Below, piece by piece: positions 25,563 to 47,245 of a DNA stretch of 64,000 nt. Under the pieces are notes generated by a model. That model was not told the DNA's origin. It saw nothing but the letters and a program-made list of their open reading frames with translations, and did not search any database. Each line of letters opens with the position of its first letter. Positions within the stretch are counted from its first letter, which is position 1. The position numbers were made by a program, and so were the translations under genes. This DNA is from an uncultured Carboxylicivirga sp. (GTDB lineage: Bacteria > Bacteroidota > Bacteroidia > Bacteroidales > Marinilabiliaceae). The stretch is taken from contig CANLLN010000011.1 in assembly GCA_947491945.1 (NCBI GenBank), positions 1-64,000 on the forward strand, in the 5' to 3' direction.

Positions 25563-25574
25563 TCCAAACTCAAA

Positions 25575-26567: not shown

Positions 26568-26576
26568 ATGCATCAA

Positions 26577-29807: not shown

Positions 29808-29883
29808 AATGACAAACAACAAAGCAAAGAAAGCCACACCCCGAAGGATGCAGCTTTCCTTTTACACACAAACAAACAATGTT

Positions 29884-31173
29884 TTAATTTGCCTTTTTTA
29901 TTCCAAAAGTAGGATTTACTTTCACCAGCTTTACCATAACAAAGCTTGGAATGGTGCAGAGCATTACCCAGATAAAGAAATGTTGGTAGCCAATCATCTC
30001 CTGTACCCATCCGGATATCATACCGGGTATCATCATACCCAAAGCCATTAAACCTGTGCAAAAGGCAAAATGGGCCGTTTTATGCTGACCTTCCGAAACA
30101 TATATTTGATAGAGCATATATGCTGTAAAACCAAAACCATAGCCAAACTGCTCAATAGCCACGGCAATACTCACCATTACAAATGATTCGGGCAAGGCAT
30201 AGGACAGATAAATATACATGAGGTTGGGCAGGTTAATGGCGATTACCATGGGCCACAGCCAGTATTTCAAGCCTTTACGCGAGGCCACCAAACCACCCAA
30301 TATACCTCCGATAGTAAGAAAAATAACACCAAATGTACCATATACTATACCCACCTGACTGGTGCTTAAGCCCAGTCCGCCCACTTCACGTGCGTCCAGC
30401 AAAAAGGGAGATGCCATTTTAACAAGCTGCGACTCACCCAGACGGTAAAACAGCAACATACCCATAATTACCCAAATATCCTTCTTAGTAAAAAATGATT
30501 TAAAAGTATGCCCAAAATCACGCAGCACATCATTGAAGGACTTCACCTCACGATCCTGATCGTCGGGTGGGTGGGGCAAGGCAAACTTATGATAGAGTGC
30601 AAACAGCAAAAACATTCCCGTAATAATATAGAAGGTTAATGACCACGCCAGTGGAACACTTGGCCCTTCATTTCCAAACAGCGTCATCTCTTCCAGCTGA
30701 CCAGCCAAAAAAACCAAAAGCCCCTGACCAGCTATCATCGACAAGCGATAAAAGGTACTGCGAATACCAATAAAATAAGCTTGCTTACTCTCATCCATGC
30801 CAAACATATAAAAGCCATCGGCAGCAATATCGTGGGTAGCTGAACTAAAAGCCAGCAACCAGAAAAAGGCCAGCGTGGACTGAAAGAAAAATGCTGTAGG
30901 AATAGTAAAGGCAATACCGGCCAGTCCCGCGCCTATCAATAGTTGCATGGTAACAATCCACCATCGCTTACTTTTAATGGTATCCACAATGGGACTCCAA
31001 AATGGCTTTATTACCCAAGGCAAATATAACCACGAGGTGTATAAAGCAATATCAGTATTGGAAATATCCAACTTTTTGTACATGATAACAGCCAGCGTCA
31101 TAACCACAACATAGGGTATTCCTTCGGCAAAATATAAGGAGGGCACCCAGGCCCAGGGGGATTTTTGTTTCAT
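29884..31173 (-). CDS. AmpG/MurT-like MFS permease
   Basis: 429 residues, 12 predicted membrane helices, of the AmpG-like MFS branch. The start MKQKSPWAWVPSLYFAEGIPYVVVMT matches the usual N-terminus; the extra 18 codons upstream are unlikely. Characteristic segments: WLYLPWVIKPFWSPIVD and the GFYMFGMDESKQAYFIGIRS loop. AmpG imports cell-wall muropeptides; in Tannerella the related MurT imports MurNAc. Its place near murK-murQ suggests MurNAc or muropeptide uptake. It is the last gene of the minus-strand group. Substrate specificity is inferred from context. Confidence 0.85.
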   Translation of the reverse strand: MKQKSPWAWVPSLYFAEGIPYVVVMTLAVIMYKKLDISNTDIALYTSWLYLPWVIKPFWSPIVDTIKSKRWWIVTMQLLIGAGLAGIAFTIPTAFFFQSTLAFFWLLAFSSATHDIAADGFYMFGMDESKQAYFIGIRSTFYRLSMIAGQGLLVFLAGQLEEMTLFGNEGPSVPLAWSLTFYIITGMFLLFALYHKFALPHPPDDQDREVKSFNDVLRDFGHTFKSFFTKKDIWVIMGMLLFYRLGESQLVKMASPFLLDAREVGGLGLSTSQVGIVYGTFGVIFLTIGGILGGLVASRKGLKYWLWPMVIAINLPNLMYIYLSYALPESFVMVSIAVAIEQFGYGFGFTAYMLYQIYVSEGQHKTAHFAFCTGLMALGMMIPGMISGWVQEMIGYQHFFIWVMLCTIPSFVMVKLVKVNPTFGIKKAN

Positions 31174-31266
31174 AATAATATGCTTAATGATGAAGTATAA
31201 GGACTGAAGCGCAATAATCAACTTCAATACTTCTTACTGTGTCTCCTGCCCTCTGTCTTCAGTCTT

Positions 31267-32598
31267 TTAATATTTTCTCTTCAACTCTGCTCCTCTAAAA
31301 TAATGCATTAAGATGGCGTTGTAATCATATCCTTTAGCTCCCATCACAGCCGCTCCTATCTGACAAAGACCAACACCATGCCCCCAACCGGCACCCACAA
31401 GTGTAAAGTTGATTTCGCCGTTGGTCTCTGATTTCTCAATGATAAAAGCGGAACTATACAGATGCGATTCGGACAAGGCTTTACGAATCTCCAACTCCTT
31501 ACCAATTACCATCGTTTTTTTATCACCTATAATTTTAAGCTTTATTAAACGACCTGAATCGCCCCGCTCTACAGGTACCATGTCCTGTATTATACCAAAG
31601 TCGATGCCCGTTCTCTTGGCAAGCAACTCACTCACTTCCTTCTGCGTATAGCTCACTTTCCAGCGATAAAAATCATTGGTTTCCTGATCATAGTCATTCA
31701 GCACCTGGCACAATACCGCATGATCATTGGTATTACAATAAGCAACGGGGGCACCACGCATCCACTTTTCGGCATTATCTTCCTTTTTCAAGTCCAACTT
31801 AAAGCCCTCTGGATTACGCTCATTATCCACAAAAGCCTGAAGATAGGGATGATTAACTGGCTCCCACACATTTTCGAACTGCTCGACCATGCCACCACAG
31901 CATTTTGAGAATCGTGCATCACAGATAGCGTCATCATACAAGAGTACCTCACCCCAGGTGGCACGTACAGCCTTAACCACCTCCGGCGTATTGGCCCTTG
32001 TAATACCCTGATAACGCTGACAATGATCATCAGCACACACATCGAAATGATGATGATCCTCACGATCGTACCATTTTATAAACTCCGTGTCAGACTCAAA
32101 AACAGACTGATATTCATCATTTTTCTGCTTTATATTTTCATTTTTCTGTATTTGGGCCAGCAACCAACTGCGCGAAATTACCGCATGGGCCTTCAAAAGT
32201 TCAAGGGATGATGTGGCGCTCATCTCAGAAGAAATCACACTCATCAAATAGTCCTCAACAGGCAATACATTGATGGCGTTGATAAGGTCCTTATCTACCA
32301 AAAGCTTCAAGGCTCCTTTGAAAGACTGATCTTCATCCCGCTCCCAATGAAAATTAATGCCAATGGTAACATCATGAAGCGTAAAAAATGCATCATTATC
32401 CTGTGGCTTAATAAGTGAGCCTGAAGGCAGGCTAATACGATCATGACCATTACTAAGCTCAAGACCACCTTTAACGCGTTTGACCTTGTATCTGCCATTA
32501 AGCGCAATACCCGCATTGCTTGTGTGTGCGCCATGCAGGGTGAATTCTATAGATTCTTTAAACTGAATACCTACATGTATTACAGGGATTTTTTCCAT
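31267..32598 (-). CDS. SpoIID/LytB domain protein, probable cell-wall hydrolase
   Basis: 443 residues with the SpoIID/LytB domain from about 100 to the end (NVLPVEDYLMSVISSEM, HAVISRSWLLAQ, GAGWGHGVGLCQIGA, MGAKGYDYNAILMHYF). SpoIID of Bacillus is a lytic transglycosylase that cuts denuded glycan strands to anhydro-MurNAc units, and Glu in the SSEMS block is the likely catalytic residue. The N-terminus has no cleavable signal that I can see (MEKIPVIHVGIQFKES), which is odd for a wall enzyme; a cytosolic role in recycling is possible. It lies between the AmpG/MurT-like permease and the GNAT gene. Confidence 0.85.
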   Translation of the reverse strand: MEKIPVIHVGIQFKESIEFTLHGAHTSNAGIALNGRYKVKRVKGGLELSNGHDRISLPSGSLIKPQDNDAFFTLHDVTIGINFHWERDEDQSFKGALKLLVDKDLINAINVLPVEDYLMSVISSEMSATSSLELLKAHAVISRSWLLAQIQKNENIKQKNDEYQSVFESDTEFIKWYDREDHHHFDVCADDHCQRYQGITRANTPEVVKAVRATWGEVLLYDDAICDARFSKCCGGMVEQFENVWEPVNHPYLQAFVDNERNPEGFKLDLKKEDNAEKWMRGAPVAYCNTNDHAVLCQVLNDYDQETNDFYRWKVSYTQKEVSELLAKRTGIDFGIIQDMVPVERGDSGRLIKLKIIGDKKTMVIGKELEIRKALSESHLYSSAFIIEKSETNGEINFTLVGAGWGHGVGLCQIGAAVMGAKGYDYNAILMHYFRGAELKRKY

Positions 32599-32610
32599 GA
32601 TATTTTCTTT

Positions 32611-32730
32611 AGTCCGAAGACCGGAAGTCCGGAGTCCGAAGCTGAGTTTACAATATGATTAGTGCCTAGTGCAAAGTGCCTGATTTACATTTTAAAGATC
32701 CTGAAGCCGATGGTCCAGAGTCCGGAGCTA
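32611..32730. repeat. Intergenic short-word repeats (GTCCGAAG / TAGTGC families)
   Basis: The stretch between the SpoIID and GNAT genes is built of repeated words: GTCCGAAG, CCGGAAGTCCGGAGTCC, then AGTGCCTAGTGCAAAGTGCC, and again TGGTCCAGAGTCCGGAG. Such word-like intergenic text is a feature I recall from other Bacteroidota genomes. Confidence 0.45.
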
Positions 32731-32743
32731 TCAGAATACCCGC

Positions 32744-33649
32744 CTACTTTAGTTTCTTTTCGAAGCGCCAAAAAACACGATCCACGCGAGCATTAGCGTG
32801 CCAGGCATAGAAGTCAATGGGACCCACCCACGGAATAACTGAATGCGACAACCCCATGTTTTTCATATCCTGCAGGCATCGCTTTAACAAAATGGCTCCC
32901 ATGCCTTTGCCCCTCAGATCAGGATGCGTTCCCATGGGACCAAACCAACCGGTGCCTTTATTATTGGCGTTATGTGCCGAAAATGCTTTCACCTCCCCTT
33001 TGAGCAAGGCAATGTGAATGGATGGTACTGCATTGGCAAAAGCCATCTCCACCTCATTGCTCCACAGCTGCCATTCGTCTTTAATAAAATCAAGAACAGC
33101 TTGTTTATCATCAGGATTAGCACGGCGCACTTCAATATTCTCGTCTCGCAGCGCCAGTTCTCTAGGGCTCATATTCCAATCCTGGTTCAAATCAACCAAC
33201 AAATTAGCGGTATCGCTAAAGCGTACAAAACCTTTACGCATGGCCCAACAAAGAGCGGGTGTATAACGTGGATCAATGCCCGGCATAAAATAATTAAGGG
33301 GCACATCGTAGATACGCACTACATCGGCCGCTGCATCCACAAATACCTTTTCAATACGATCGTACAAAGCTGTTGCAATCCCTTGCCTGCGCTCTTCTGC
33401 AGTTACAGCCATTAGCTTGATATAGGCATAGCGCGTGCCTCTTATATCGCGCATCACACCTTGCATAAAGCCAACAATACGATTGCCTTTCCGATAAACA
33501 AATGTTGCTTCGGGCAGCCAGTAAGGATCGCCTTGCAACTTTTCTTCGAGTAAGGTTTCTGTTATTGTGTCATACTCCCAAGAGGCGTTCAAAAAACGCG
33601 CTAGTTCAGGTATATCTGTGGCTTGAAATTGGGTTATTGGATTCGTCAT
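32744..33649 (-). CDS. Tandem GNAT-domain N-acetyltransferase
   Basis: 301 residues with two GNAT folds. The first acetyl-CoA pyrophosphate loop is RRQGIA (87-92) after the strand KLMAVTAEE; the second is RGKGMGA (about 255) after FGPMGTHPDLRG. Tandem GNATs often have one active and one structural domain. Acceptor unknown; its place among cell-wall recycling genes suggests an amino sugar or peptide substrate, but that is inference. Start ATG at 33649 is the first in frame. Confidence 0.82.
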   Translation of the reverse strand: MTNPITQFQATDIPELARFLNASWEYDTITETLLEEKLQGDPYWLPEATFVYRKGNRIVGFMQGVMRDIRGTRYAYIKLMAVTAEERRQGIATALYDRIEKVFVDAAADVVRIYDVPLNYFMPGIDPRYTPALCWAMRKGFVRFSDTANLLVDLNQDWNMSPRELALRDENIEVRRANPDDKQAVLDFIKDEWQLWSNEVEMAFANAVPSIHIALLKGEVKAFSAHNANNKGTGWFGPMGTHPDLRGKGMGAILLKRCLQDMKNMGLSHSVIPWVGPIDFYAWHANARVDRVFWRFEKKLK

Positions 33650-33755
33650 AGATTAGATATTAGCGTGCTTTGCTGTTAAATGCCGGACTTTACATCGAAG
33701 CTAAGGTTTCTTTTAAATTTATCTCTCAGTTTCTTAAGCTAGTAGAGCGTTTAAT

Positions 33756-33845
33756 AAGTTTTAGGGAACGGTTCTCTTTCCTAAGATGTTTATAAAGAAG
33801 CGTTCCCTAAAAACTTAATGATAATGCAACTTTCAGAACTTACTA
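33756..33845. repeat. 90-bp interspersed hairpin repeat (MITE-like), copy 2
   Basis: Same length and layout as copy 1 at 14846-14935. TTAGGGAACGGTTCT (33761-33775) faces AGAAGCGTTCCCTAA (33796-33810), and the unit ends AACTTTCAGAACTTACTA. The ends TAATAAGTTTTAG and the reverse of CAGAACTTACTA form about 10-13 bp imperfect terminal inverted repeats. It sits in the gap between GNAT and DUF4922. Confidence 0.75.
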
Positions 33846-33859
33846 GTAGTCGCCAGCTC

Positions 33860-34804
33860 CTAACAGCATTTTAATAGTTCTTTCAATAATTTCAAACAAT
33901 CATCTTCATGCATGCAGACTTGACTTAAAATATCAGCTACATGGCCGGCATTGATCTTCTCAAAGTCCTCCGGACGTGGCGTGATAAACACTCCCCCCAT
34001 ATCTACAGAAGCCGGACTTATCAGTAATTGCGCATCGCCCTGGGCAAAATAACACGACGGACGGTGCAAAATACGAGGGAATACATGCACTACATATTCC
34101 TCATTCTCATTGTAAGCCAAAACATTTAGCATTGGCTCCACCTCCTCCTTCTGATTCGCCCACAACAGTTGGTGTAAATGGGTGAAAAGGTTGGCAATGG
34201 CCTCGGCATTCTCACTTGAAAATGTAATAACGCCCCGCTGATAGCCATGCCAGTTAAACACTTTCACATTATTCTGCACTCCAATAAGCTGTGCATACGT
34301 TGCTTCCCTGAAATCTTTTTCAACGGGCATAAATCCTTTTATACCCGCCTGAAAATGGAAGTGATCCGGGGCTGAGGCACCACACTTGGGTCCGTTGTAA
34401 AACAGGGTAAACTCATCTAACTCCCTTGCTAGCTTCAGCATCGAAGGGAAATAAGGCGCAATCAACTGTAAGGTATGTTGCTGGTGCGGAACGGTAAGGT
34501 GCTCCGGAAATATTGGAAAAGGATTAATCAAGATAGTATAATCATCAATATCAACCCCTTCCTGTTCGGCCGGGCGATTTTTCTCACAGAGAAAACAGGG
34601 ACGTTCCTGAATGGATTGCGCATCGACTTTAGCCGCCGATGAGCGGATACGTCCGGGATTAAACTGCACCTTAACAGTGCTGCCTCCTACCAGCGTAACA
34701 CTTTTGGTCTGAACCTTTTCAAGGTCGGCGTAGTTATTGGCAGCCAGGCTCCAATTTAGAACCTGGTGCTCAATAAGTTTTTTGGTTTTGAGAGAAATAT
34801 TCAT
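33860..34804 (-). CDS. DUF4922 protein, HIT-like nucleotidyl-transfer fold
   Basis: 314 residues. The motif HFHFQ at 148-152 (in YNGPKCGASAPDHFHFQAG) is the H-phi-H-phi-Q signature of the HIT/GalT-like branch that includes Ap4A phosphorylase and GDP-L-galactose phosphorylase. A CFLC pair at 70-73 could hold zinc. This family swaps nucleotides and phosphates on sugars; no activity has been fixed for DUF4922 as far as I know. It is in the minus-strand group between the GNAT and the tandem glycosyltransferase, so a role in cell-wall sugar nucleotides is likely but unproven. Confidence 0.85.
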   Translation of the reverse strand: MNISLKTKKLIEHQVLNWSLAANNYADLEKVQTKSVTLVGGSTVKVQFNPGRIRSSAAKVDAQSIQERPCFLCEKNRPAEQEGVDIDDYTILINPFPIFPEHLTVPHQQHTLQLIAPYFPSMLKLARELDEFTLFYNGPKCGASAPDHFHFQAGIKGFMPVEKDFREATYAQLIGVQNNVKVFNWHGYQRGVITFSSENAEAIANLFTHLHQLLWANQKEEVEPMLNVLAYNENEEYVVHVFPRILHRPSCYFAQGDAQLLISPASVDMGGVFITPRPEDFEKINAGHVADILSQVCMHEDDCLKLLKELLKCC

Positions 34805-34810
34805 TTGTCA

Positions 34811-34910
34811 AGCTTCTGGAAGCTAGTCACTAGCGATAAGCTAGTGGCAGCTTGCTTTATGTTAGCTGATAGCTACCCGCCTTTCGCTGATAGCTATTTT
34901 CAGCTTGGTT
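34811..34910. repeat. Intergenic short-word repeats (GCTGATAGCTA / CACTAGC families)
   Basis: The sequence between DUF4922 and the glycosyltransferase is word-like: GCTGATAGCTA twice, and CTAGTCACTAGCGATAAGCTAGTGGC. No gene or clear regulatory structure is seen. It resembles the word repeats at 32611-32730 in style, not in sequence. Confidence 0.4.
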
Positions 34911-35022
34911 ATTAATTGAGTCCAAGTAAGGCTGTATTCCTATTCAGGAGGTGACATTTACACGATACTTATGGTCACCGACTGAATGGCTCTGCGCTCA
35001 CCTTTTCACTCCGGACTTATTT

Positions 35023-36477
35023 CTACTTTCTATTAACTACCTGCTTACGTGCCATAAACTCCATGGTGCGGATTTTATCCTTATAGAAATTATGGGCATT
35101 CATCTTATTAATATCCAGCGAGGCATCTGAGTTATCATCCCAGCGGCGACAGAGGTATAACGGATCATAAATGCGACCAATCTGATAGTGACGACTGATA
35201 TTAAGTCCCAGCGCATAATCTTCGCCATAGCTTGTATTGGGCACTTTTACATCGCGCAGCACCGGTGTATAAAAGGCACGCGGAGCACCCAGCCCATTGA
35301 TGCGCAAGGCATTGTTTCGTCCATTATCAGGTGTCCACTCCTTGTGATCGATTAATCCCGGAGGAATTTCTTCAAGCTTGAAGTTCACCATTTGGTAACT
35401 ACCCACTACCATGGCACAATTTTGCTCATAGAAAGCTTTCACAATACGTTCAATTACGGTCTCATCAATATACAGGTCATCACTATCCAGTTGGATGGCG
35501 AATTTACCACAGCGGGCATCGGCCACCGCCACATTCCAGCAGCCACCAATTCCCAGATCATCACGCTCGGGAATGATATGAATCAAGCGCTCATCACTGA
35601 AAGAACGTATAATTTCAGAGGTTTTATCCGTTGAATGGTTATCAACAATAATCAGGTTAAAAGAAAAATCTGTTTTTTGCTTTAATACAGATTCGATGGC
35701 ATCACCAATGGTTTTTTCGCGGTTCCGCACCGGAATAATAACAGATGCTTCCACCGGGAAGTCGGACGCAGTGAACTCAATCTTTTTAAATTCAGGCTTC
35801 AGATAAGCACCCACTGACTTTAGATGAGCCGTACATGCCATTTCCATCTCAATCTGACGCTCGCGATTACGAGGATCCACATAGTCAAACATCTTCTCTC
35901 CCGACTTGCGTGTATCCAGCTCCACTTCGGTATACAGCAGTTCAGGGAGATGCAAGAGACGGTGGTTCTGTGATATGCGCAGGCGCAAATCATATAAGGC
36001 AGCATGCTTATAATCAGCATCCATTGCTTCAATCGCTGCTTTAAGAGCATTGGCCTTATACAGCAATAAAGAGCCGAAATTAAAATCATCGCGAAGGCTC
36101 CCTTCCTGATATTCGATTACGGGATGTGCCGACAGCTGTCCGTTCTTCTTTTCGTAATAGTCGGCATACACCATACCGGCGTCTGCATCGGCACAGCATC
36201 GCGCCATGCGTTCTAAGGCATTCATACCAATATTCAAGGCCATCGCTTTGGTATAAACCGCCACAAAATCACCGGTGATATGCTTTTGCAATTGTTTCCA
36301 AGTTGCTGTGGCTCCCAAATCACCTTCTGATACCATTACAGTGGCCCCTTCCACATGAACAGCCTCTTTGGCAACTACTATAATGTTTGCCGCCTTTTCC
36401 TTCTGAAATGCCTCCAGCGTAGGCTTCATCTCTTCCGCATTTGAATACGGAAGAATACAGGTTATTTTTTCACTCAT
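35023..36477 (-). CDS. Glycosyltransferase with two GT2-like domains
   Basis: 484 residues. The C-terminal half (about 245-484) is a canonical GT2: VIIPVRNREKTIGDAIESVL, IIVDNHSTDKT and the DxD-type LDSDDLY. The N-terminal half repeats the plan in weaker form (ILPYSNAEEMKPTL; DAGMVYADYYE), with the acid pair in a YADY context, so it may be inactive. No membrane helices are seen, so it is cytosolic or membrane-associated. Donor and acceptor are unknown; the neighbourhood suggests cell-wall or polysaccharide work. It starts 41 bp from the amidase gene on the same strand. Confidence 0.85.
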   Translation of the reverse strand: MSEKITCILPYSNAEEMKPTLEAFQKEKAANIIVVAKEAVHVEGATVMVSEGDLGATATWKQLQKHITGDFVAVYTKAMALNIGMNALERMARCCADADAGMVYADYYEKKNGQLSAHPVIEYQEGSLRDDFNFGSLLLYKANALKAAIEAMDADYKHAALYDLRLRISQNHRLLHLPELLYTEVELDTRKSGEKMFDYVDPRNRERQIEMEMACTAHLKSVGAYLKPEFKKIEFTASDFPVEASVIIPVRNREKTIGDAIESVLKQKTDFSFNLIIVDNHSTDKTSEIIRSFSDERLIHIIPERDDLGIGGCWNVAVADARCGKFAIQLDSDDLYIDETVIERIVKAFYEQNCAMVVGSYQMVNFKLEEIPPGLIDHKEWTPDNGRNNALRINGLGAPRAFYTPVLRDVKVPNTSYGEDYALGLNISRHYQIGRIYDPLYLCRRWDDNSDASLDINKMNAHNFYKDKIRTMEFMARKQVVNRK

Positions 36478-36518
36478 TGTATTTTGATTTAGTCGTTATA
36501 TTATAGAGATATTTTATT

Positions 36519-39500
36519 TTATTTCTGATAAAAAAAATTCAGTATTTGCTTCATCAATGCTTCCCTTTCTCTTTCACCCATCACGGTCTCAAAGGGAAAG
36601 CCCATTACAATCGTTTTATAGTTACCATCATACAAGACTGCTGCACTGGCATTATTTTCGCCATAGCGCATGGCTGTTATGGCATTTATTCCCATGGGCT
36701 CAATGGCATCGGGTGCCTCCACGGCGTAATACTCCTCACTGAACTCTGTGTTAAACTCAAATTGCCCCTTTAGGTAAGGCAAGGCATAATCGCTTGCGTA
36801 AACATTGCCACTTTGCGAAGCATGATTCGTCCGCCATTTAAATCTGAGCACATCGGCTGCAAAATCCATGGCTGCCGTATCCTTATTGAGGTAAATATCC
36901 GAACCCACATAGGCTCCACTTAACAAAACATGCTGCTTGTTGGCGGTCAGCGCACACAACTTATTCATAAACGCCGATGTGTATATTTTATAGCGGGGTG
37001 ACCTACCCTTATACACCTCAGTGCTTCGCTCTTCTCCCAAAATAATATCGACCACCTTAAATGATGATGCATCGTATTCAGGATCTTCAAAAACCTCATC
37101 ACTCACCGAAATAAATGAATAGCCGGCCGCCAATATGGCCTGTCCATGTACCCATACATGATCAAAATTATTTCCTCTGATGACTTTTCCTTCAGTATTG
37201 CCGTAACTCGCTCCCCAACCCGGACTGTCATCATCGAGCCAGGGCGACTGGCGATTAAAATCATACTGATGTCCCGTATAGGCATACTCATACTGATCGG
37301 GCACACCCTGATCATCCCACCAGGCAACACCGGCAAAATCACCCTCATCAACAAAGGCCGGTGCTGCAATGCGGTCAAAGCCATTCACCACCAACACTGT
37401 TTCAGATCTTTTGCGGGCCATTCCCACCGACAGAACTTCACTGGCACTGCTCTCTCCTCCGTCATTAATCGCTGTTACCTTATAACTAACGATATCGCCC
37501 TTCTTTAATTTTGGTATTGCATAAAAGGGCTGGTTCACAATAGTGCCATTATCAAAACCGGCCTTACCCACGCGGCGATATACCTTGTATCGAGTAGGCG
37601 TAGCACTTGCTTCCAGGGTATCGATTACCGGCCGCCATGTCAACTCATAGCCTTTTTTTGTTTCACCAATGGCCAGATGATCAACCGGCAGAGGCTGCAC
37701 ACAATAGTCGCGTCTCTCCTGCATGGCCATAAACTTTAAAATGCCCTTATAAATGGCGCGACTGACATCACGCCGAAAATGCGGATCAAGACCATATTTC
37801 ATATCGGCCAGGTTCTGATGCGACAAAAGTTCCAATAGCATTGTTGGCACATTGGGGCGCCAAGCTTCTGAATACTGCTTATCCCATAAACCTCGCCGCG
37901 TCCAGTCATCTTTATAAAGAGATCGTATATCGTCAACAATTTGTGTTTGAATAATATCACTTAGATCCCGACCGGCCAGTTTTGACTGTCCATTGGGAAA
38001 ATAACCACTGTCGCGGGCTGCACTGTATATCCCAAGGGTACCAATCACCGAGTCGTTGGGCGTTACCCCTGCATCAGTATGAAAAGCGAAAGACAGATCA
38101 ATCGGTAATCCCAATCCTTTAACAGCTCTCCACTTAGTAGGCCCATTGGGGGCGCCCATTAAATAATCGACCCATTCGCCCCGGCTCTGATAATCATCAT
38201 TATAATCATTCTTGCCCTCATTGAGACTGTAAACAAGAGTATCGGGCATGCCGGCATATTGCAACCAGTAACGCGCAGCCTCCATGTAACGGGGTCTTTG
38301 CGACAGCTTCCAGGAATATTGTTTGGGGTTTACTTGGGCAGGCTTCACTTTCTTATCATCCTGACTCCGCAAGGACCATTGATTGGGCACCACCTCATTG
38401 GCCGGGCGGCGGGCTACATTGCCCATACCACCACCCAAGCGCATGGCATCCACTGAAATACGACCTCTTCCATGCACTTCGACAACAGCCTCCCGACCCT
38501 TTTCGAAGCGGTGAGAGCCCAAATAAGCCCAGGTATTGCCACCCATCGATTGATTAAGAAGGTATGAGGTGGATCCTCCACTGTGCTGTACTACATAACG
38601 TACAGCTGTACTATTATTCCGATCGTGCTTATAGCTCACATAAACCGCATAGTTGCCGGTAGCCGGTATATCAGCATGGAAGTCAGCAACTTTACCCCCA
38701 CCTGACTCAAACAGATGGGAGCTGCCCATCAGAAACGGATTGTCGCTCGGATAAAGGGTGTCTTTATAAGCAAAACCCAACTGCCTAAATACCTTTAATT
38801 TATTATTGTACTGCACAAATGATTTACCCGTCGAACGGTCACTATCCACAATCACTTCACGAGGATTGAGACAGCGTTCACGCGGCAAAAACACATTGGC
38901 ACCAGCTCGCTCCAGCATGGGGACAAGGTATGGCAGCACATACATCATTGGCGAAATATCCTCTACAGAGCCAAACAACCGGGCCCGCTGCCACTCCCAT
39001 CGATCAAGCTTTGACTCATAATACCAGCCATGACTATGCCATAAGGCAATATGATTACCATCAAGACCCTGAGGAAAAACAGGCTGCTCAAGGCGTGTAA
39101 CAAACTTTGCACCACTGTCGACTTTTGACAAGCGTGCCGTATCAATGCGATCACTCTTTCGAAATAAATTAGGAATTAAACTCTCCAGGGTCTGACCGTC
39201 GCTAAATACCTGAACACAATAACTTTCAACAAGGCTATCCTGCATAGATTGCAGGCTTTTCTTAAACCCGGAAACGGTTGCCTCGCGCCAAGGTCGATAG
39301 GATAAGGTTTTATTAAAGTAGTAGTTTATGCAACTATCTGCCCGGCTAATGACAAAAGAATCCAGCTTGGCAATGCCCTGATGCATTTGATGCGGCATGG
39401 GATCGCTCCACTTCTTCAAGACGGTATCTAACAAACTCTCCATGCTTCTGTCTGAAACAGTTTGAGCATTTATTGCGCCAGCCATGAAGCAAGCAATTAT

Positions 39501-39536
39501 ACATACAATAATATGTGGATTATATTTTTTCATCAT
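36519..39536 (-). CDS. Large secreted N-acetylmuramoyl-L-alanine amidase-like protein
   Basis: About 1005 residues from ATG at 39536 (MMKKYNPHIIVC); longer frames lack the signal peptide, which ends near AINAQ. Domains in order: an N-terminal amidase half (WHSHGWYYE, about 165-175), a golvesin-C-like beta domain (YAVYVSYKHDRNNSTAV...SVDAMRLGG), the second amidase half (FHTDAGVTP, then LLELLSHQN, the likely His and Glu of Amidase_3), and FN3-like segments. The amidase therefore appears split by an inserted domain. Amidase_3 cleaves MurNAc from the stem peptide, feeding recycling. Divergent from murK-murQ. Confidence 0.8.
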   Translation of the reverse strand: MMKKYNPHIIVCIIACFMAGAINAQTVSDRSMESLLDTVLKKWSDPMPHQMHQGIAKLDSFVISRADSCINYYFNKTLSYRPWREATVSGFKKSLQSMQDSLVESYCVQVFSDGQTLESLIPNLFRKSDRIDTARLSKVDSGAKFVTRLEQPVFPQGLDGNHIALWHSHGWYYESKLDRWEWQRARLFGSVEDISPMMYVLPYLVPMLERAGANVFLPRERCLNPREVIVDSDRSTGKSFVQYNNKLKVFRQLGFAYKDTLYPSDNPFLMGSSHLFESGGGKVADFHADIPATGNYAVYVSYKHDRNNSTAVRYVVQHSGGSTSYLLNQSMGGNTWAYLGSHRFEKGREAVVEVHGRGRISVDAMRLGGGMGNVARRPANEVVPNQWSLRSQDDKKVKPAQVNPKQYSWKLSQRPRYMEAARYWLQYAGMPDTLVYSLNEGKNDYNDDYQSRGEWVDYLMGAPNGPTKWRAVKGLGLPIDLSFAFHTDAGVTPNDSVIGTLGIYSAARDSGYFPNGQSKLAGRDLSDIIQTQIVDDIRSLYKDDWTRRGLWDKQYSEAWRPNVPTMLLELLSHQNLADMKYGLDPHFRRDVSRAIYKGILKFMAMQERRDYCVQPLPVDHLAIGETKKGYELTWRPVIDTLEASATPTRYKVYRRVGKAGFDNGTIVNQPFYAIPKLKKGDIVSYKVTAINDGGESSASEVLSVGMARKRSETVLVVNGFDRIAAPAFVDEGDFAGVAWWDDQGVPDQYEYAYTGHQYDFNRQSPWLDDDSPGWGASYGNTEGKVIRGNNFDHVWVHGQAILAAGYSFISVSDEVFEDPEYDASSFKVVDIILGEERSTEVYKGRSPRYKIYTSAFMNKLCALTANKQHVLLSGAYVGSDIYLNKDTAAMDFAADVLRFKWRTNHASQSGNVYASDYALPYLKGQFEFNTEFSEEYYAVEAPDAIEPMGINAITAMRYGENNASAAVLYDGNYKTIVMGFPFETVMGEREREALMKQILNFFYQK

Positions 39537-39564
39537 CCCTGGTAAATATCGCTTTACGATGAAC

Positions 39565-39594
39565 CAAAAGTAGAAAGTTTTTTTCAAGTTACAA
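39565..39594 (-). promoter_or_regulatory. Promoter of the amidase gene group (minus strand)
   Basis: On minus, TTG at 39594-39592 is followed after exactly 19 nt by TACTTTTG (39572-39565), a full match to the TTG-N19-TAnnTTTG Bacteroidota consensus. It is 29 nt upstream of the chosen ATG. Confidence 0.7.
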
Positions 39595-39623
39595 ATTTTT
39601 GTCATACATCTTACGTGTTATTC

Positions 39624-39654
39624 TTGATTCACACTCAAATAATTTATACATTTG
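39624..39654 (+). promoter_or_regulatory. Promoter of murK-murQ (plus strand)
   Basis: TTG at 39624-39626, a 20-nt spacer and TACATTTG at 39647-39654. The murK start is about 108 nt further on, so the leader is long enough to hold regulatory sites; none was firmly recognised. Confidence 0.65.
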
Positions 39655-39761
39655 CAAGGTATTCAGGAAGAAATAGCGAAGATAAACACCTACACAGTTC
39701 AATATATCTTGCTTATACAACACTAAACTAATATTTATAATACATATCACGTTATTATTAT

Positions 39762-40604
39762 ATGATACTTATTGCAGACAGCGGATCAACCAAAACAGAA
39801 TGGTGCTTGATTGAAAATAGACAGCCCATAGAGAAATGTATTACAAAAGGCATTAACCCTTTTTATCAAACCTCCTCCGAGATACTACAAAATTTAATGG
39901 AGGAATATACACTAAATTACAAAAAGCCTCAAACCATTTATTTTTATGGTGCCGGCTGTGCCAACGAGGAAAAAAATAACATTGTAAAAGAAGGTCTTGC
40001 AGCCTATTTTCAAGGTGCTGATATTCATATAGACAGTGACCTATGCGCAGCCGCCCGTTCTCTGTGCCAGCAACAGCCTGGTATTGCCTGTATATTAGGT
40101 ACCGGCTCCAATTCGTGTTACTACGATGGGCAAGCCATGGTAAATAACGTATCACCCTTGGGTTTTATCATAGGCGATGAAGGCAGTGGCGCAGTACTGG
40201 GCAAAAAACTTATTGGTGACTTATTAAAAAATCAGCTACCCGAAAGTGTAAGGAAGCATTTTTTTGAAACCTACTCAACCACTCAGGCCGAAATACTGGA
40301 TCACATTTACAAACAAGGCTTCCCCAATCGTTACCTGGCACAATACACACGATTTTTAGCACAACACATTGAAAAACCGGAGATTGAAAGCCTGGTCACA
40401 CAGGCCTTTTGCGAATTTATAGAACGTAACCTGCTTCAGTATGAGCAAGCTGCCAGCTTACCCATACATTTTACAGGTAGCATCGCCTATTATTTTAAAA
40501 ATCAACTTAAAAAGGCACTTATTAAGTACAATCTAAAGCTGGGATCCATTACACAGGCACCCATGGAAGGATTGATACAATACCATACCGCACTAAAGCA
40601 TTAA
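39762..40604 (+). CDS. murK: BadF/BadG-type sugar kinase, probable MurNAc kinase MurK
   Basis: 280 residues of the BadF/BadG/BcrA/BcrD ATPase fold (ASKHA kinases). The phosphate-1 loop is ILIADSGSTKTEWCL; phosphate-2 is CILGTGSNSCYY with GDEGSGAVLGKKL after it. The family includes eukaryotic-type N-acetylglucosamine kinase and Tannerella MurK, which phosphorylates MurNAc at O6. The murQ gene begins 3 bp after its stop, the natural partner for MurNAc 6-phosphate, which favours MurK over GlcNAc kinase. Symbol is by context and homology. Confidence 0.82.
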   Translation: MILIADSGSTKTEWCLIENRQPIEKCITKGINPFYQTSSEILQNLMEEYTLNYKKPQTIYFYGAGCANEEKNNIVKEGLAAYFQGADIHIDSDLCAAARSLCQQQPGIACILGTGSNSCYYDGQAMVNNVSPLGFIIGDEGSGAVLGKKLIGDLLKNQLPESVRKHFFETYSTTQAEILDHIYKQGFPNRYLAQYTRFLAQHIEKPEIESLVTQAFCEFIERNLLQYEQAASLPIHFTGSIAYYFKNQLKKALIKYNLKLGSITQAPMEGLIQYHTALKH

Positions 40605-40607
40605 ATT

Positions 40608-41435
40608 ATGATAGCACAAAAGAAACAAAGATTAAGCATAACCGAATCGCCTTCCCATTTTGACAATCTGGAAAAGATGTCAGTGGAAGAACTCATTAGA
40701 AACATCAATCGCGAAGATGCCAATGTGCATTTGGCCGTTGAAAAAGCATTACCCCAAATCAAAGCACTGGTTGAGCGTATCATTAAACGAATGGAACAGG
40801 GCGGCCGGGTTTTTTATTTGGGTGCCGGCACAAGTGGTCGCTTGGGGGTACTGGATGCCTCAGAGTTGCCGCCCACTTTTGGGGTGCCTGACAATATGGT
40901 GATTGGCCTAATAGCGGGTGGCGACAGGGCATTACGACAAGCCGTTGAATCAGCCGAAGATGACCCGGACAAAGCCTGGCGAGAATTGGGCGAATACAAA
41001 GTAGATGAATTGGATACGGTAATCGGCATTGCAGCCTCGGGTACTACACCCTACGTTATTGGCGGCATACAACATGCCCGTAAAAACGGCCTCTTGACCG
41101 GTTGCATCACTTGCAACCCGGGCACTCAGGTGGCTGCTGTGACCGAATTTCCCATTGAAGCCATTGTGGGGCCTGAATTTGTTACGGGCAGCACACGCCT
41201 AAAAGCAGGAACAGCCCAGAAAATGATCCTTAACATGATTACCACCAGTATTATGATTAAGCTGGGGCGTGTAAAAGGCAATAAAATGGTAAACATGCAA
41301 TTAACCAACAAAAAACTGGTTGATAGGGGTGCACGTATGATTATGGATGAGCTGAACATGAACTACGAAACAGCAAAAGGATTATTGCTGGAACATGGAT
41401 CAGTGAAGAAAGCAATTGATGCCTACCGACGATAG
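40608..41435 (+). CDS. murQ: N-acetylmuramic acid 6-phosphate etherase
   Basis: Cuts the lactyl ether of MurNAc 6-phosphate to give GlcNAc 6-phosphate and D-lactate, the key step of peptidoglycan recycling. 275 residues with the SIS sugar-phosphate fold. Conserved blocks: FYLGAGTSGRLGVLDASELPPTFG, the central ESAEDDPDKAW, IGIAASGTTPYVIGG and GPEFVTGSTRLKAGTAQK. It lies 3 bp after murK, so kinase and etherase form one operon. The length is a little shorter than the about 298 residues of E. coli MurQ but includes the full catalytic core. Confidence 0.95.
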   Translation: MIAQKKQRLSITESPSHFDNLEKMSVEELIRNINREDANVHLAVEKALPQIKALVERIIKRMEQGGRVFYLGAGTSGRLGVLDASELPPTFGVPDNMVIGLIAGGDRALRQAVESAEDDPDKAWRELGEYKVDELDTVIGIAASGTTPYVIGGIQHARKNGLLTGCITCNPGTQVAAVTEFPIEAIVGPEFVTGSTRLKAGTAQKMILNMITTSIMIKLGRVKGNKMVNMQLTNKKLVDRGARMIMDELNMNYETAKGLLLEHGSVKKAIDAYRR

Positions 41436-41446
41436 TTTTAAGAAGG

Positions 41447-41490
41447 AAAGCCGGAGATGAACCACGTTGCGTGGTTTCCTCCGGCTTTTA
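41447..41490. terminator. Intrinsic terminator between murQ and the GntR gene
   Basis: AAAGCCGGAG (41447-41456) pairs with CTCCGGCTTT (41479-41488), ten perfect pairs; an inner ACCACG/CGTGGT stem stacks inside. A T run follows. It can end both converging transcripts. Confidence 0.85.
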
Positions 41491-41518
41491 TGGCTTAACG
41501 CTTCTGCACTAATATATT

Positions 41519-42244
41519 TTAATCCGTATCCTTAAAATATTTATCGTATACCTCCATATTACGCTCCAGCAACTCAACAGTATACTGATAAGAACGTTCG
41601 CTATCCTTATCAATCACCGCCTTTAATATCTCATGCTGCAAGCGCACAGTGTACTCTTTCTCTCCCTCAATATTGGCATAAATCATATTACGCATGCGGG
41701 GCAATAATGAATAAATTGGCTCCATGGATATGATTACAATGGGATTCCCCGTGGCTTTCGCCATATTCATATGAAAGCGGTTAATTAAATCCACCTCCAG
41801 CTGAGTATTATCGGGATTACATCGCTCTAGCTCGGCAATATTTGACTGCAACAACTTCACATCATCATCAGTGCGATTAATGGCAGCCAGGCGGCCGATT
41901 TCGGGCTCAAAAATACGTCGCACCTCAATAATCTGGCGGATAAGACTCGAATCAAATTTTAGATCGTAATACAAATTCAAAGACTTGATGGCATCCTCAA
42001 TCTTAATTTCAGATACATACATGCCACTTCCCTTTTTTATTTCGATAAGCCCCCGGGCACTCAGGCGTCGCAATGCTTCGCGCAAGGCCGTTCGGCTCAC
42101 GGCAAAACTCTCACACAACTCCTTCTCGGAGGGCAATTTAGCCCCGGTAATCAATCGTTTTGACCGGATGGCCTCCTCGATTTTTCGTTCTATCTTTTGG
42201 CTTAAGGTTTGACTCGTACCAATTTTTCCAAATAATTCTTCCAT
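41519..42244 (-). CDS. GntR-family regulator, FadR (FCD) subfamily
   Basis: 241 residues. N-terminal winged helix about 10-75 (LITGAKLPSEKELCESFAVSRTALREALRRLSARGLIEIKKGSGMYV) and an FCD ligand domain about 90-235 (IRQIIEVRRIFEPEIGRLAA...; RFHMNMAKATGNP), with the Asp/His positions used for metal in this subfamily. FCD regulators respond to sugar acids, organic acids or acyl groups. It converges with murK-murQ and probably controls this locus; that is inference. Its operator was not found. Confidence 0.88.
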   Translation of the reverse strand: MEELFGKIGTSQTLSQKIERKIEEAIRSKRLITGAKLPSEKELCESFAVSRTALREALRRLSARGLIEIKKGSGMYVSEIKIEDAIKSLNLYYDLKFDSSLIRQIIEVRRIFEPEIGRLAAINRTDDDVKLLQSNIAELERCNPDNTQLEVDLINRFHMNMAKATGNPIVIISMEPIYSLLPRMRNMIYANIEGEKEYTVRLQHEILKAVIDKDSERSYQYTVELLERNMEVYDKYFKDTD

Positions 42245-43628: not shown

Positions 43629-44582
43629 CTATTCATGCCTTATATCACGTGTAAATACTAACGAATCACTGTCGAAATTCATACCGGATACCAATCCCAG
43701 CCCACCCTTTACATTGCTATGAATTTTAACAGGCTCAAAAACCGGCAATCCTTCATAAATACCAGCATAGCCATCAGCTAATATGGTGGATCGCAAATAC
43801 TCGTAATAATCGATGGTATGGTGATAGAGGTAAACGGTTATCTTTATTTTCTGTTCATGGTAACTAAATAAAAAGTACTCCGAGGGGATGTTCAGCCTTA
43901 ACGGATGCGTGCGCCCGTTAATAATATCATCGGCAAATAAGCCCTGAAGATCAAGTCCCGGCAACAAGCTACCACTCTGCTCACCCTGCGTAAAAACAGG
44001 ATCCTCTTTGGCATACGAGACAGTTTGCCGCGTATAATTAACTTTCCCATCTTCCACACCCCATCCTTCGCGCAGTACATAAAGCTGATAGTAATTTTTT
44101 TCATCTCCCGGATCTTTAAACGAAACAGTGGTACGCAGCATAGGTACATCCACCTCTTCACCAACATTGACATTCACCGACAGTGTATCCAAAGCCAAAA
44201 TATTGACTTTGTGCGGAATAAAGCTACGTGCCAAAACCGTATCACCATCAATCTCATAAGCATTGAATATCAAACGATCCTTACTGCTAAAAGAAAACTC
44301 TGCCCACCTACTCCACACCGTATCTGAGGGCAAAATGTAGGTTCCCTTGTAATCATCATTAATGGCCAGTTCAAATCGCCCTTTCTCTACCTTTTGATAA
44401 TCATTGGGTGTCAGAATATTCTGACTTTTACTCAGATGCAAGTGCAAAGCACTATCGGGATATACAAAAGCGTACATCACCAGTTTATCAGACTGCTCAT
44501 TAAGGGCAATTTCAATATCCTTTTCACAGCCAATCAGCACCAATACAGTAAACAACAGATAATAAATTCTTCTTTTCTTCAT
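43629..44582 (-). CDS. DUF4249 lipoprotein
   Basis: 317 residues. The N-terminus MKKRRIYYLLFTVLVLIGCEK is a lipoprotein signal with the lipobox Cys in LIGC. The rest matches DUF4249, a surface lipoprotein that in Bacteroidota sits beside a TonB-dependent receptor and is probably its outer-leaflet partner. The gene lies 2 bp after the receptor gene, so they are co-transcribed. It is the last gene of the sigma-FecR-receptor module. Ligand is unknown. Confidence 0.88.
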   Translation of the reverse strand: MKKRRIYYLLFTVLVLIGCEKDIEIALNEQSDKLVMYAFVYPDSALHLHLSKSQNILTPNDYQKVEKGRFELAINDDYKGTYILPSDTVWSRWAEFSFSSKDRLIFNAYEIDGDTVLARSFIPHKVNILALDTLSVNVNVGEEVDVPMLRTTVSFKDPGDEKNYYQLYVLREGWGVEDGKVNYTRQTVSYAKEDPVFTQGEQSGSLLPGLDLQGLFADDIINGRTHPLRLNIPSEYFLFSYHEQKIKITVYLYHHTIDYYEYLRSTILADGYAGIYEGLPVFEPVKIHSNVKGGLGLVSGMNFDSDSLVFTRDIRHE

Positions 44583-44584
44583 GG

Positions 44585-47245
44585 CTAAAACTTCACGGTG
44601 TATCGCACATAGGGGATGGGTATAGGAAACAGACTAAACTGCTTAAGGGAGCGCTCAATCTCTCCGGTAGCTTCAATTTCTCTATCGGAGAAATACAGGA
44701 AGAAAGGATTCTGACGACCATATGTATTCATGATGCCTACGCTCCACAAACGGCTACCCCAATGCCTTTTCTTATGAAAATTAAACCCCACATCTAAACG
44801 ATGAAAGTTGGGCATACGATAGCTATTACGCTCCGCAATATACTGATTATAACCTCCCGTATTATCTGATTCAGCAGTAGGGAGTGGAGGTGCATAATAC
44901 TTTTTCTCGGGCAAGGTAAGGGGGTTACCCGTACCAAAAGTCCAGGTTGCACCCATATCTACTTTTTCAGAAAATTTATAGGTTGTATAAAGTGACACAT
45001 CATGCGTACGGTCAAAGTTGGCCGGAAACTCACGTCCATTGTTCAGTTCATCAAACTGATTGGTACTTTTAGAATAAGTATAACCCAACCAGCCCGATAA
45101 ATTACCCATCTTGCGATGCAGCAGCAGTTCCACCCCATACGACTGTCCCTTACCAACAGTCAGCTTACTCTGCCAGTCCGACGAGAAATCAAAATAACCC
45201 GCCGTTTCTTTATATGCCAGTATATCCTTTAACTTCTTATAATAAAATTCTACCGATAAATTAAAACCATTAGCGATTTCATACTCCAGCCCCAGTGCAT
45301 ACTGAGAGGCTCGCATCGGCGCGATGTTATCAGACACTGGCAACCATAAATCGGTGGGCATAGCTACAGTTGCCGTACGCAGCAGGTGCATATATTGTGT
45401 CATCTGACTATAAGCTGCCTTAACCGATAAATTATCATGCATGAGAAAACGAGCGGACAAACGCGGTTCGGCCGACCAGTAAAACTTATCACTTTCGGTT
45501 TGAAAAAGAGAAAAATGCCCACCAATATTCATCTTAAGACGGGGCAGTAAATGAAAATCATCCTCCACATAAAAGCGATATTCAGAGCGATACATACGTG
45601 TGCCACCAAATGTTGTGTCAACAGGTGTTCCTCCGGCTATCTCAGCCAGTACAACATCAATACCCGGATAGAAAATATGACCTATGGCATTGGCGCCAAA
45701 ACGAATATAATGACGCGCAGATGGCATATAGTCCACATCCACTTTAGCACTTACATCACGAATACCACTGTAATACTCTTGACTACCCTTATTCCACACA
45801 TCTTTAGATACATAGTTTAAGGTTTGATCAATGAAGAATCGATAATCACTATAGGTAAGTGTTGTATTAGCAAACATCTTATTCCCAAACACATGATTCC
45901 AGCGCACTGACCCCACATAATTGCGCCAGCCCATATCACTTTCATCGTAGGTTTTCACAGTTTGTCGGGGCACATCCTCGGGAGCATTGATAACTATATT
46001 TTGCTCATTGTAAGAAATTCCGTACTGATCCTTGCCCATATAGGCACTGAGATGGAGCCGATCCTTATGAGACAGGCGATAATTAAGTTTCGCATTGAAA
46101 TCGTAGAAATAGTATCGGCTTTTATCAGCCTCCTTCATCTGCCACAAACTGGTCATTATATCCAAATAAGTGCGCCGAAAAGAGGCAGAAAATGAGGACT
46201 TATCTTTAATGAGTGGTCCCTCAACAGCTAGTTTACTGGACAACAAACCCACACTGGCCACTCCTTTATATTCCTGAACATTACCGTCATACATGCGAAT
46301 ATCTACAACCGATGATAGGCGTCCGCCATAGCGCGCAGGAAACCCCCCTTTAATAACCCGAACACTATTAACGGCATCGGCATTAAAAATAGAGAAGAAA
46401 CCCAGCAGATGACTGGAGTTATAGATGGGTACATCATCCATCAATACCAGGTTTTGATCAGGGCCGCCACCTCGTACGTACAACTCACTAAAACCTTCAC
46501 CACCACTCTGTATGCCGGGTAATAGCTGAATACTCTTTACTACATCAACTTCTCCTAAATACACGGGCACGTTTTTTATCTGCTCGATGGGCACATCGAT
46601 AGTACCTGTACGCGTACTTTTAACTTGTTGCGGCACACGATGACCCACAACGGCAATCTCCTCCAGCTCCTTTTTGGGTTCCATCATAAAGTAAAGCACA
46701 GTATCCTTTTCGAGCTGCATATAGTGATGTGCATTTTTATAACCCACGTAAGAACTACTTAGGTGGACAAAGCCCCGCGGCATGGCAATACTAAAGAAAC
46801 CAAAATTATTACTGACTGTTCCCAACAACAGATCAGGCTCATAGATATTGGCTTGAATAAGGGCCTCGCGCGATTGACGATCAAGCACATAACCTTTAAT
46901 CACAAATTTACGATCACCATCGTCCTGTACCTGAATAATAACTTTATTGCCACGCACGATATAACCGGCAGGGCAATTACTAAATAAAGCATCCAGAATT
47001 TCGCGTACCGTCCCTGATAGTTGCATAAGACTTATGCTATCCTGAAAACACAACTGGTTACTATAACTGAATACAATGCCAGTTTGCTGCTCAATATCAC
47101 CCAGAAAATCATGGGTAGAAACATTTTCTGAAGACAGGTTAACAGGGGTATATAACACGTTTTGCCCGCTCAAACTGACAGTCATCAGTAGAACAAGCAA
47201 AACAACATAAAGACGTTTAAAAGTATGCTGTAAGATTATTGACAT
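44585..47245 (-). CDS. TonB-dependent outer-membrane receptor with STN signalling domain
   Basis: 886 residues. Signal peptide about 1-28; STN domain about 35-105 (FLGDIEQQTGIVFSYSN, SGTVREILDALF), which talks to a FecR anti-sigma; CarboxypepD_reg-like domain about 108-195; plug about 215-320 (GGEGFSELYVRGGGPDQNLVLMDDVPIYN); then a 22-strand barrel ending in a terminal VKF aromatic. It is the receptor of a cell-surface signalling system, with sigma and FecR genes upstream and DUF4249 downstream. The ligand (iron, vitamin, peptide or glycan) cannot be told. Confidence 0.92.
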   Translation of the reverse strand: MSIILQHTFKRLYVVLLVLLMTVSLSGQNVLYTPVNLSSENVSTHDFLGDIEQQTGIVFSYSNQLCFQDSISLMQLSGTVREILDALFSNCPAGYIVRGNKVIIQVQDDGDRKFVIKGYVLDRQSREALIQANIYEPDLLLGTVSNNFGFFSIAMPRGFVHLSSSYVGYKNAHHYMQLEKDTVLYFMMEPKKELEEIAVVGHRVPQQVKSTRTGTIDVPIEQIKNVPVYLGEVDVVKSIQLLPGIQSGGEGFSELYVRGGGPDQNLVLMDDVPIYNSSHLLGFFSIFNADAVNSVRVIKGGFPARYGGRLSSVVDIRMYDGNVQEYKGVASVGLLSSKLAVEGPLIKDKSSFSASFRRTYLDIMTSLWQMKEADKSRYYFYDFNAKLNYRLSHKDRLHLSAYMGKDQYGISYNEQNIVINAPEDVPRQTVKTYDESDMGWRNYVGSVRWNHVFGNKMFANTTLTYSDYRFFIDQTLNYVSKDVWNKGSQEYYSGIRDVSAKVDVDYMPSARHYIRFGANAIGHIFYPGIDVVLAEIAGGTPVDTTFGGTRMYRSEYRFYVEDDFHLLPRLKMNIGGHFSLFQTESDKFYWSAEPRLSARFLMHDNLSVKAAYSQMTQYMHLLRTATVAMPTDLWLPVSDNIAPMRASQYALGLEYEIANGFNLSVEFYYKKLKDILAYKETAGYFDFSSDWQSKLTVGKGQSYGVELLLHRKMGNLSGWLGYTYSKSTNQFDELNNGREFPANFDRTHDVSLYTTYKFSEKVDMGATWTFGTGNPLTLPEKKYYAPPLPTAESDNTGGYNQYIAERNSYRMPNFHRLDVGFNFHKKRHWGSRLWSVGIMNTYGRQNPFFLYFSDREIEATGEIERSLKQFSLFPIPIPYVRYTVKF

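Follow-up and report, generated by a model that had tools for sequence, protein, structure and literature searches.

Positions 29884-42244 of a 64,000-nucleotide stretch of DNA from an uncultured Carboxylicivirga sp. (order Bacteroidales; contig CANLLN010000011.1, the whole stretch being referred to below as the window) hold a salvage system for peptidoglycan sugars of the type known from Tannerella forsythia, built around a conserved, partly fused core of three predicted cytosolic proteins: a tandem glycosyltransferase of family 2 (GT2), a DUF4922 protein and a protein of the SpoIID family of lytic transglycosylases. We found no description of this core in the literature searched. The new element is the grouping of GT2, DUF4922 and the linked SpoIID into one unit; a published operon already contains GT2 and, judging by position, DUF4922. 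On genomic grounds, we lean towards the three proteins acting together in the cytosol on wall fragments imported by the permease AmpG.

A preliminary description of this DNA had proposed a recycling locus for N-acetylmuramic acid (MurNAc) of the Tannerella kind, a proposal borne out by family matches and synteny. Profile searches found every gene that it named to be an intact open frame of the family claimed, although the genes, described as one stretch, form two divergent units: a minus-strand unit (in order, an amidase-like gene, GT2, DUF4922, a double GNAT acetyltransferase, SpoIID and AmpG) and a plus-strand unit (a kinase and MurQ), followed by a GntR/FCD regulator on the minus strand (Table 1).

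T. forsythia is reported to rely on imported wall fragments, and import of N-acetylglucosamine (GlcNAc)-1,6-anhydro-MurNAc (anhMurNAc) and GlcNAc-MurNAc by its AmpG is indicated (PMC7670621). A single transcript carries Tanf_08345 (xanthan lyase), Tanf_08350 and Tanf_08355 (both ‘glycosyltransferase’), Tanf_08360 (lytB), Tanf_08365 (ampG), Tanf_08370 (ybbC) and murT-murK-murQ (PMC5388701); the gene for K1058, a second MurNAc kinase, lies immediately upstream (PMC10465942). The window resembles this ampG-murTKQ region (Tanf_08345-08385; PMC5388701, PMC7670621, PMC5790795) in its order of xanthan-lyase-like gene, glycosyltransferase, second ‘glycosyltransferase’, lytB/SpoIID and ampG, and in its MurNAc kinase and MurQ. 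Judged by gene order alone, Tanf_08350 would correspond to GT2 and Tanf_08355 to DUF4922, which speaks against the earlier view that these two proteins are foreign to the pathway. The window locus differs in that neither ybbC/NamZ nor MurT was seen in it (two NamZ genes lie elsewhere in its own genome), and in its divergent kinase-MurQ unit, its extra double GNAT and the presence in its genome of AnmK, which T. forsythia is reported to lack.

Conservation and fusion of the core genes

DUF4922 was found in 73 of 295 genomes of the order Bacteroidales and in nine of 295 genomes of its class, all nine within that order; profile matches in two control genomes, Synechococcus elongatus and Lactococcus lactis, indicate that the family extends beyond Bacteroidales. 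A first set of 73 loci (L037-L109) came from 71 of the 73 order genomes (all except the window's own genome and G426) together with G170 and G199 from the class draw, and a second set, from named genomes, comprised the best 80 of at least 590 loci. Removal of duplicates (L134, L136) gave 149 distinct loci, of which 96 have at least 8 kilobases on either side (full-flank loci). A tblastn match to DUF4922 was obtained in 71 of the 73 loci in the first set; the two genomes without one (G459 and G551; L081, L082) were excluded from locus counts and kept in genome counts.

Gene fusions provide, in our view, the strongest evidence for joint action of the three proteins. DUF4922 shares one open frame with a neighbour in 13 of 71 loci, spread over nine genera: five loci in four genera carry GT2-DUF4922 fusions (L061, L063, L064, L067, L073), five in three genera carry DUF4922-SpoIID fusions (L054, L062, L072, L075, L077), and three in two genera carry triple GT2-DUF4922-SpoIID fusions (L060, L083, L084). 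Some of these share a genus (L083 and L084, genus g6, class draw; L072, L075 and L077, genus g264; L063 and L067, genus g7). The seven fusions scanned with Pfam all contain the expected domains, in the expected order, in a single frame. One triple fusion (L083) is from a single-contig genome; the L060 frame leaves the end of its contig, so its SpoIID part is incomplete.

In many Bacteroidales, unfused genes keep the same company in the same order. In 84 of the 96 full-flank loci, GT2 is a same-strand neighbour of DUF4922 at a distance within 600 base pairs (measured between tblastn match ends); SpoIID is likewise placed in 70, and GT2, SpoIID and AmpG occur together in 71. Among the 73 loci of the first set, we counted GT2 in 60, SpoIID in 52, AmpG in 52, the kinase in 31, MurQ in 21, the Golvesin/amidase-like protein in 19 and GNAT in three; the corresponding counts in the best-80 named set are 76, 67, 64, 51, 39, 48 and four, with GntR in seven. 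At the genome level, SpoIID of either kind (see below) is present in 71 of 73 DUF4922 genomes versus 100 of 222 others, the two exceptions (G459, G551) being the two weakest DUF4922 matches. Strong MurQ matches (best expectation value (E) <1e-40) were found in 41 of 73 DUF4922 genomes versus 27 of 222 others, a count that ignores kinship; the limit was set there because weaker matches are cross-matches to frames of about 615 residues, probably GlmS. The preliminary description was thus right that DUF4922 and GT2 travel with the locus, and their co-occurrence with murKQ holds, while that of the double GNAT does not.

Predicted chemistry and location of the core proteins

The window DUF4922 protein scores 206 bits against its family profile (gathering score 23.6); its closest named relatives among the matches listed are from Carboxylicivirga sp. 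M1479 (66%) and C. linearis (64%), as would suit a genome of the Marinilabiliaceae. Two motifs are invariant in 34 of 34 DUF4922 sequences: HxHxQ (H148, H150, Q152) and CxxC (C70 and C73, within CFLC). A structure model (predicted local distance difference test score (pLDDT) 95.4) is most similar to the yeast diadenosine tetraphosphate (Ap4A) phosphorylase Apa2 (Z 23.3 over 265 residues, 3.0 Å), followed by a DUF4931 protein (Z 12.4), ADP-glucose phosphorylase (Z 10.1) and GalT (Z about 9). Fold and HxHxQ are thus shared with the Apa2/ADP-glucose phosphorylase/GalT branch of the HIT superfamily, at about 18% identity to Apa2. The Pfam family Ap4A_phos_N scores 15.7 bits in the window protein, below its cut-off of 23.1, which two of the seven fused relatives scanned (L072, L077) pass. 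H150 aligns with the site where the Apa2 entry 4i5v has alanine instead of histidine, and CFLC aligns with DCFLC of Escherichia coli GalT, in an alignment that is not significant. In GalT, the cysteines of this motif bind zinc.

Based on these fold and motif families, DUF4922 likely transfers a nucleotidyl group via a histidine to either phosphate or a sugar phosphate; the modelled fold is consistent with the sugar-nucleotide phosphorylase that the preliminary description had suggested. In the searched, mostly open literature, DUF4922 is named only in work on plant GGP. The nearest solved structures are all of Apa2, including those with Ap4A and adenosine monophosphate (Z 22.7-23.3), and the protein might accordingly be an Ap4A-type dinucleotide phosphorylase in a module that senses or regulates wall stress and processes no sugar. 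We consider this very improbable: its ties to a glycosyltransferase and a glycan-cleaving family, through both synteny and fusion, indicate a sugar substrate, and Apa2, in its alignment with DUF4922, lacks the CxxC that is invariant here.

For GT2, the structure model (pLDDT 91.6) has as its top Foldseek match the K4 chondroitin polymerase K4CP (2z86; E 4.4e-21), which likewise carries two GT2-like domains in one chain; the likeness is in fold only, at 15% identity and with the window protein shorter. A D-x-D motif in the second domain (D331-S332-D333) is invariant in 34 of 34 sequences, and no D-x-D is found in the first domain among invariant or nearly invariant alignment columns.

The resemblance to a polymerase raises an anabolic alternative, the ‘re-use as activated donors’ of the preliminary description, in which an activated sugar, produced or exchanged by DUF4922 (GalT-like, from UDP-sugar and sugar-1-phosphate), would be used by GT2 for glycan synthesis, with SpoIID trimming MurNAc ends or transferring them. 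The two-domain K4CP fold, the GalT-like CFLC of DUF4922 and the T. forsythia authors' description of their operon as glycosylation-related (PMC5388701) all fit this reading. It nevertheless seems unlikely to us, as the stable neighbours among ten window probes are the importer and, often, the catabolic MurK/MurQ, no flippase or export gene lies within the window's minus-strand unit, DUF4922 is closer in fold to a phosphorylase than to GalT, and the first GT2 domain lacks a conserved D-x-D.

SpoIID had been taken as a familiar part of such loci, a view that does not fit the protein found here, which has a predicted cytosolic location and, in some relatives, forms a fusion with DUF4922. Its profile matches solved SpoIID lytic transglycosylases (4rwr, 5i1t; E 1.2e-26), from which the window protein differs in having no signal or anchor, and the glutamate of the SEM motif (E125), which is catalytic in this family, is invariant in 24 of 24 linked SpoIIDs. 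These proteins begin with a short conserved P-x-I-x-V-G-I stretch, and just 20 open codons precede the ATG of the window gene, with no signal peptide encoded there. A second SpoIID kind occurs in Bacteroidales (L190-L207), mostly of about 390 residues and with a signal-peptide-like start in most of the 18 proteins. Using a crude hydrophobicity line (mean Kyte-Doolittle value of at least 2.0 over 11 residues within the first 45), one of 52 linked frames lies above it versus 13 of 18 of this other kind; the 52 include eight fusions, where the N-terminus is the partner's, and the single frame above the line (L040) resembles a strand. Among the five controls below it, three are signal-peptide-like with a late or clipped start (L191, L194, L203) and two are short frames (L204, L205). 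The linked SpoIID is thus predicted to be cytosolic, unlike the order's other SpoIID kind. Neither a cytosolic SpoIID nor a GT2/DUF4922/SpoIID fusion was noticed in the literature searched, which covered few subscription papers.

Canonical SpoIID proteins work outside the cytosol, and the linked SpoIID could therefore be a wall cleaver exported without a classical signal, with GT2 and DUF4922 as a separate pair that merely shares its operon. In keeping with this, some loci have SpoIID apart from GT2-DUF4922, and signal-less SpoIIDs occur in two genomes without a DUF4922 match (G386, G566; L208, L209). The DUF4922-SpoIID and triple fusions, which place the SpoIID domain after one or two soluble domains and no signal, and the genome-level co-occurrence noted above nonetheless make this explanation quite unlikely in our estimation.

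A putative cytosolic route for imported wall fragments

The joint action of GT2, DUF4922 and SpoIID could be accommodated in a five-step pathway. Outside the cell, the amidase-like protein would remove peptides from wall strands, and AmpG would bring GlcNAc-anhMurNAc and GlcNAc-MurNAc into the cytosol. GT2 and DUF4922 would then remove GlcNAc with a nucleotide as carrier, GT2 forming a nucleoside diphosphate (NDP)-sugar and DUF4922 phosphorolysing it to sugar-1-phosphate via a nucleotidyl-histidine, a step suggested by fold, motif, adjacency and fusion. The MurNAc end would be the substrate of the cytosolic SpoIID; in the simplest case, this enzyme would open the 1,6-anhydro ring to give MurNAc, the reverse of its usual chemistry. 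Finally, kinase and MurQ would convert MurNAc to MurNAc-6-phosphate and GlcNAc-6-phosphate by the established MurK/MurQ chemistry. In five loci (L037, L087, L096, L100, L108), SpoIID lies within 600 base pairs of the kinase or MurQ, as expected if SpoIID supplies MurNAc.

The third and fourth steps are the newest and least certain, and our leaning stated at the outset covers the weaker claim of joint action. We offer only tentatively the specific proposal of a route different from that of NagZ and AnmK. In it, GT2 and an Apa2/GalT-like enzyme would release GlcNAc from (anh)MurNAc through phosphorolysis with a nucleotide as carrier, and the anhydro ring would be opened by a lytic transglycosylase running in reverse in the cytosol. 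If such a route exists, bond energy would be saved as sugar-1-phosphate, and in some species all three activities would reside in one polypeptide.

AnmK is present in 14 of 73 DUF4922 genomes versus 186 of 222 others and, with one genome per family, in two of 21 with DUF4922 versus 79 of 93 without it. Kinship was taken into account with an AlaS tree of 77 genomes (80 hand-chosen from the 295, minus G300, G344 and G349, in which AlaS is partial or missing), a single-gene tree built rapidly, in which many forks are weak and one row (G310) is very long. In six supported tree pairs that differ in DUF4922, AnmK differed in the opposite direction in 1.3 and in the same direction in 0.5 on average (median p 1); in eight pairs that differ in AnmK, the opposite direction was seen for DUF4922 in 1.7 and the same direction in 0.1 (median p 0.5), the independent pairs being too few to attain 0.05. 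We therefore rejected AnmK replacement as a proven link and, given the unsupportive tree-aware test, retain the AnmK counts as description rather than as evidence for replacement.

For NagZ, 78 hand-chosen genomes were searched, including 33 without DUF4922, all of them AnmK-positive. No match exceeded the curated cut-off in any of the 78, and the window's genome has no NagZ-like protein of glycoside hydrolase family 3 (GH3) with E <1e-30. At that limit, NagZ-like GH3 proteins are found in 35 of 45 DUF4922 genomes versus 33 of 33 others (p 0.004, kinship ignored), mostly in frames of about 1000 residues that may not be the cytosolic enzyme. These counts lend weak support to NagZ replacement.

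Several observations weigh against the joint salvage role favoured here. On the AlaS tree, the scarcity of AnmK among DUF4922 genomes is mostly attributable to a single clade. AnmK is also encoded in the window's own genome, where ring opening by SpoIID would hence be unneeded. No strong MurQ match was found in 32 of the 73 DUF4922 genomes. GT2-DUF4922 lies away from SpoIID in some loci (e.g., L045, L064, L105), and the signal-less SpoIIDs of G386 and G566 show that the coupling is imperfect from the SpoIID side as well. With respect to chemistry, UDP-GlcNAc formed by GT2 would already be useful, leaving the need for DUF4922 not obvious, and reversal of GT2 on a beta-glycoside would be uphill unless pulled.

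The T. forsythia authors predict no AnmK and leave open how AmpG-imported fragments are processed (PMC7670621); the genes adjoining ampG are now named candidates for this post-import processing, and the natural fusions allow a direct test. If joint action is confirmed, a cytosolic lytic transglycosylase acting on imported fragments would represent a new use of this enzyme class, and a function could be assigned to DUF4922 across many Bacteroidales, including gut Bacteroides.

Importer, kinase and other features of the locus

Table 1. Coordinates of the locus features in the window, with the matches that identify them
Feature	Position	Strand	Evidence
Terminator-like hairpin, 16 pairs, directly 3' of ampG	29826..29861	-	Consensus scan
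AmpG-type muropeptide permease	29884..31227	-	TIGR00901, E 3.6e-53
SpoIID/LytB-type lytic-transglycosylase-like protein, no signal peptide, predicted cytosolic	31267..32598	-	PF08486, E 2.6e-24; TIGR02669, E 7.6e-52
Double GNAT acetyltransferase	32744..33649	-	PF00583 in two stretches
DUF4922 protein, Ap4A-phosphorylase/GalT-like, HIT superfamily	33860..34804	-	PF16269, E 2.9e-61
Tandem GT2 glycosyltransferase	35023..36477	-	PF00535 in residues 245-377 (second half)
Golvesin_C/fn3 protein with Amidase_3-like core	36519..39605	-	PF25275, E 1.1e-18
BadF-type sugar kinase	39762..40604	+	PF01869, E 1.2e-06
MurQ, MurNAc-6-phosphate etherase	40608..41435	+	TIGR00274, 319.6 bits (cut-off 302)
GntR/FCD regulator	41519..42244	-	PF00392 and PF07729

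The permease had been described as AmpG/MurT-like. The AmpG part of that name stands, with a match to the AmpG family profile TIGR00901 of 180.7 bits (below the curated cut-off of 350) and a syntenic AmpG in 114 of the 149 distinct loci; this family match led us to reject MurT. Comparison with a Bacteroides fragilis locus (L164) suggests that the true AmpG start is probably the ATG near 31173. No MurT gene adjoins the kinase in the window, and when the gene that occupies the murT position in B. fragilis was used to search the window's genome, no match was obtained, a weak negative given that the search had no positive control.

The kinase scores 28.7 bits against PF01869, below the cut-off of 31.5. 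When compared with the Protein Data Bank using phmmer, its top match is the uncharacterised 1zxo (307.5 bits), followed by 8oqw/8ow9 (274.7/273.1) and 8oqk/8ow7 (250.1/249.2), which PMC10465942 gives as entries for MurK and K1058, respectively; the higher scores against the MurK structures place the window kinase closer to T. forsythia MurK than to K1058.

The Golvesin_C/fn3 protein, which by its position would be the ‘xanthan lyase’ of the T. forsythia operon, is a candidate N-acetylmuramoyl-L-alanine amidase, with an Amidase_3 match (PF01520; E 0.001, 19.6 bits) below the cut-off of 27. Four residues invariant in 14 of 14 homologues (H192, E243, H509, E592) are candidates for the metal-binding/catalytic set of Amidase_3, on the basis of the motifs of that family and of a match to 7rag that is weak (E 0.039). 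A hydrophobic N-terminus in 16 of 19 homologues suggests that the protein is probably secreted.

The double GNAT, listed as a member of the locus in the preliminary description, is a rare lineage-specific extra and was rejected as a core member, being present in seven of the 149 distinct loci. In all seven (L112, L155, L161, L166, L086, L087, L099), it directly follows DUF4922, upstream of SpoIID or AmpG. The GntR/FCD protein, homologues of which adjoin murQ in seven of 80 loci in the best-80 named set, is a candidate regulator of the locus.

The B. fragilis locus shares with the window the Golvesin/amidase-like protein, GT2, DUF4922, SpoIID, AmpG, kinase and MurQ, and additionally encodes two NamZ proteins, a sodium symporter, a metallophosphatase/pyrroloquinoline quinone (PQQ) protein, a flavin adenine dinucleotide (FAD)/Fe-S oxidase and, in the place of MurT, an HGSNAT-like membrane protein. 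The FAD-oxidase/Fe-S protein, which lies between NamZ and the MurT place (L164:14827-17697), is possibly a D-lactate dehydrogenase consuming the D-lactate released by MurQ.

The hairpin downstream of ampG (29861-29826) has the longest stem of the scan (16 pairs, versus nine in the next best); in total, the region contains 16 terminator-like sites versus 13.1 in shuffles. Promoter-like sites showed no excess (29 versus 28.9 in shuffles) and were set aside. No island of odd composition was seen, G+C content being 0.43-0.45 at the locus and 0.40-0.49 around it. Elsewhere in the window, three adjoining genes at 23119-26594 appear by eye to be biotin-synthesis-like (8-amino-7-oxononanoate synthase, diaminopelargonic acid (DAPA) aminotransferase and biotin synthase), and genes adjoining the locus at 43629-48263, also named by eye, are TonB-dependent-receptor-like, FecR-like and small lipoprotein-like.

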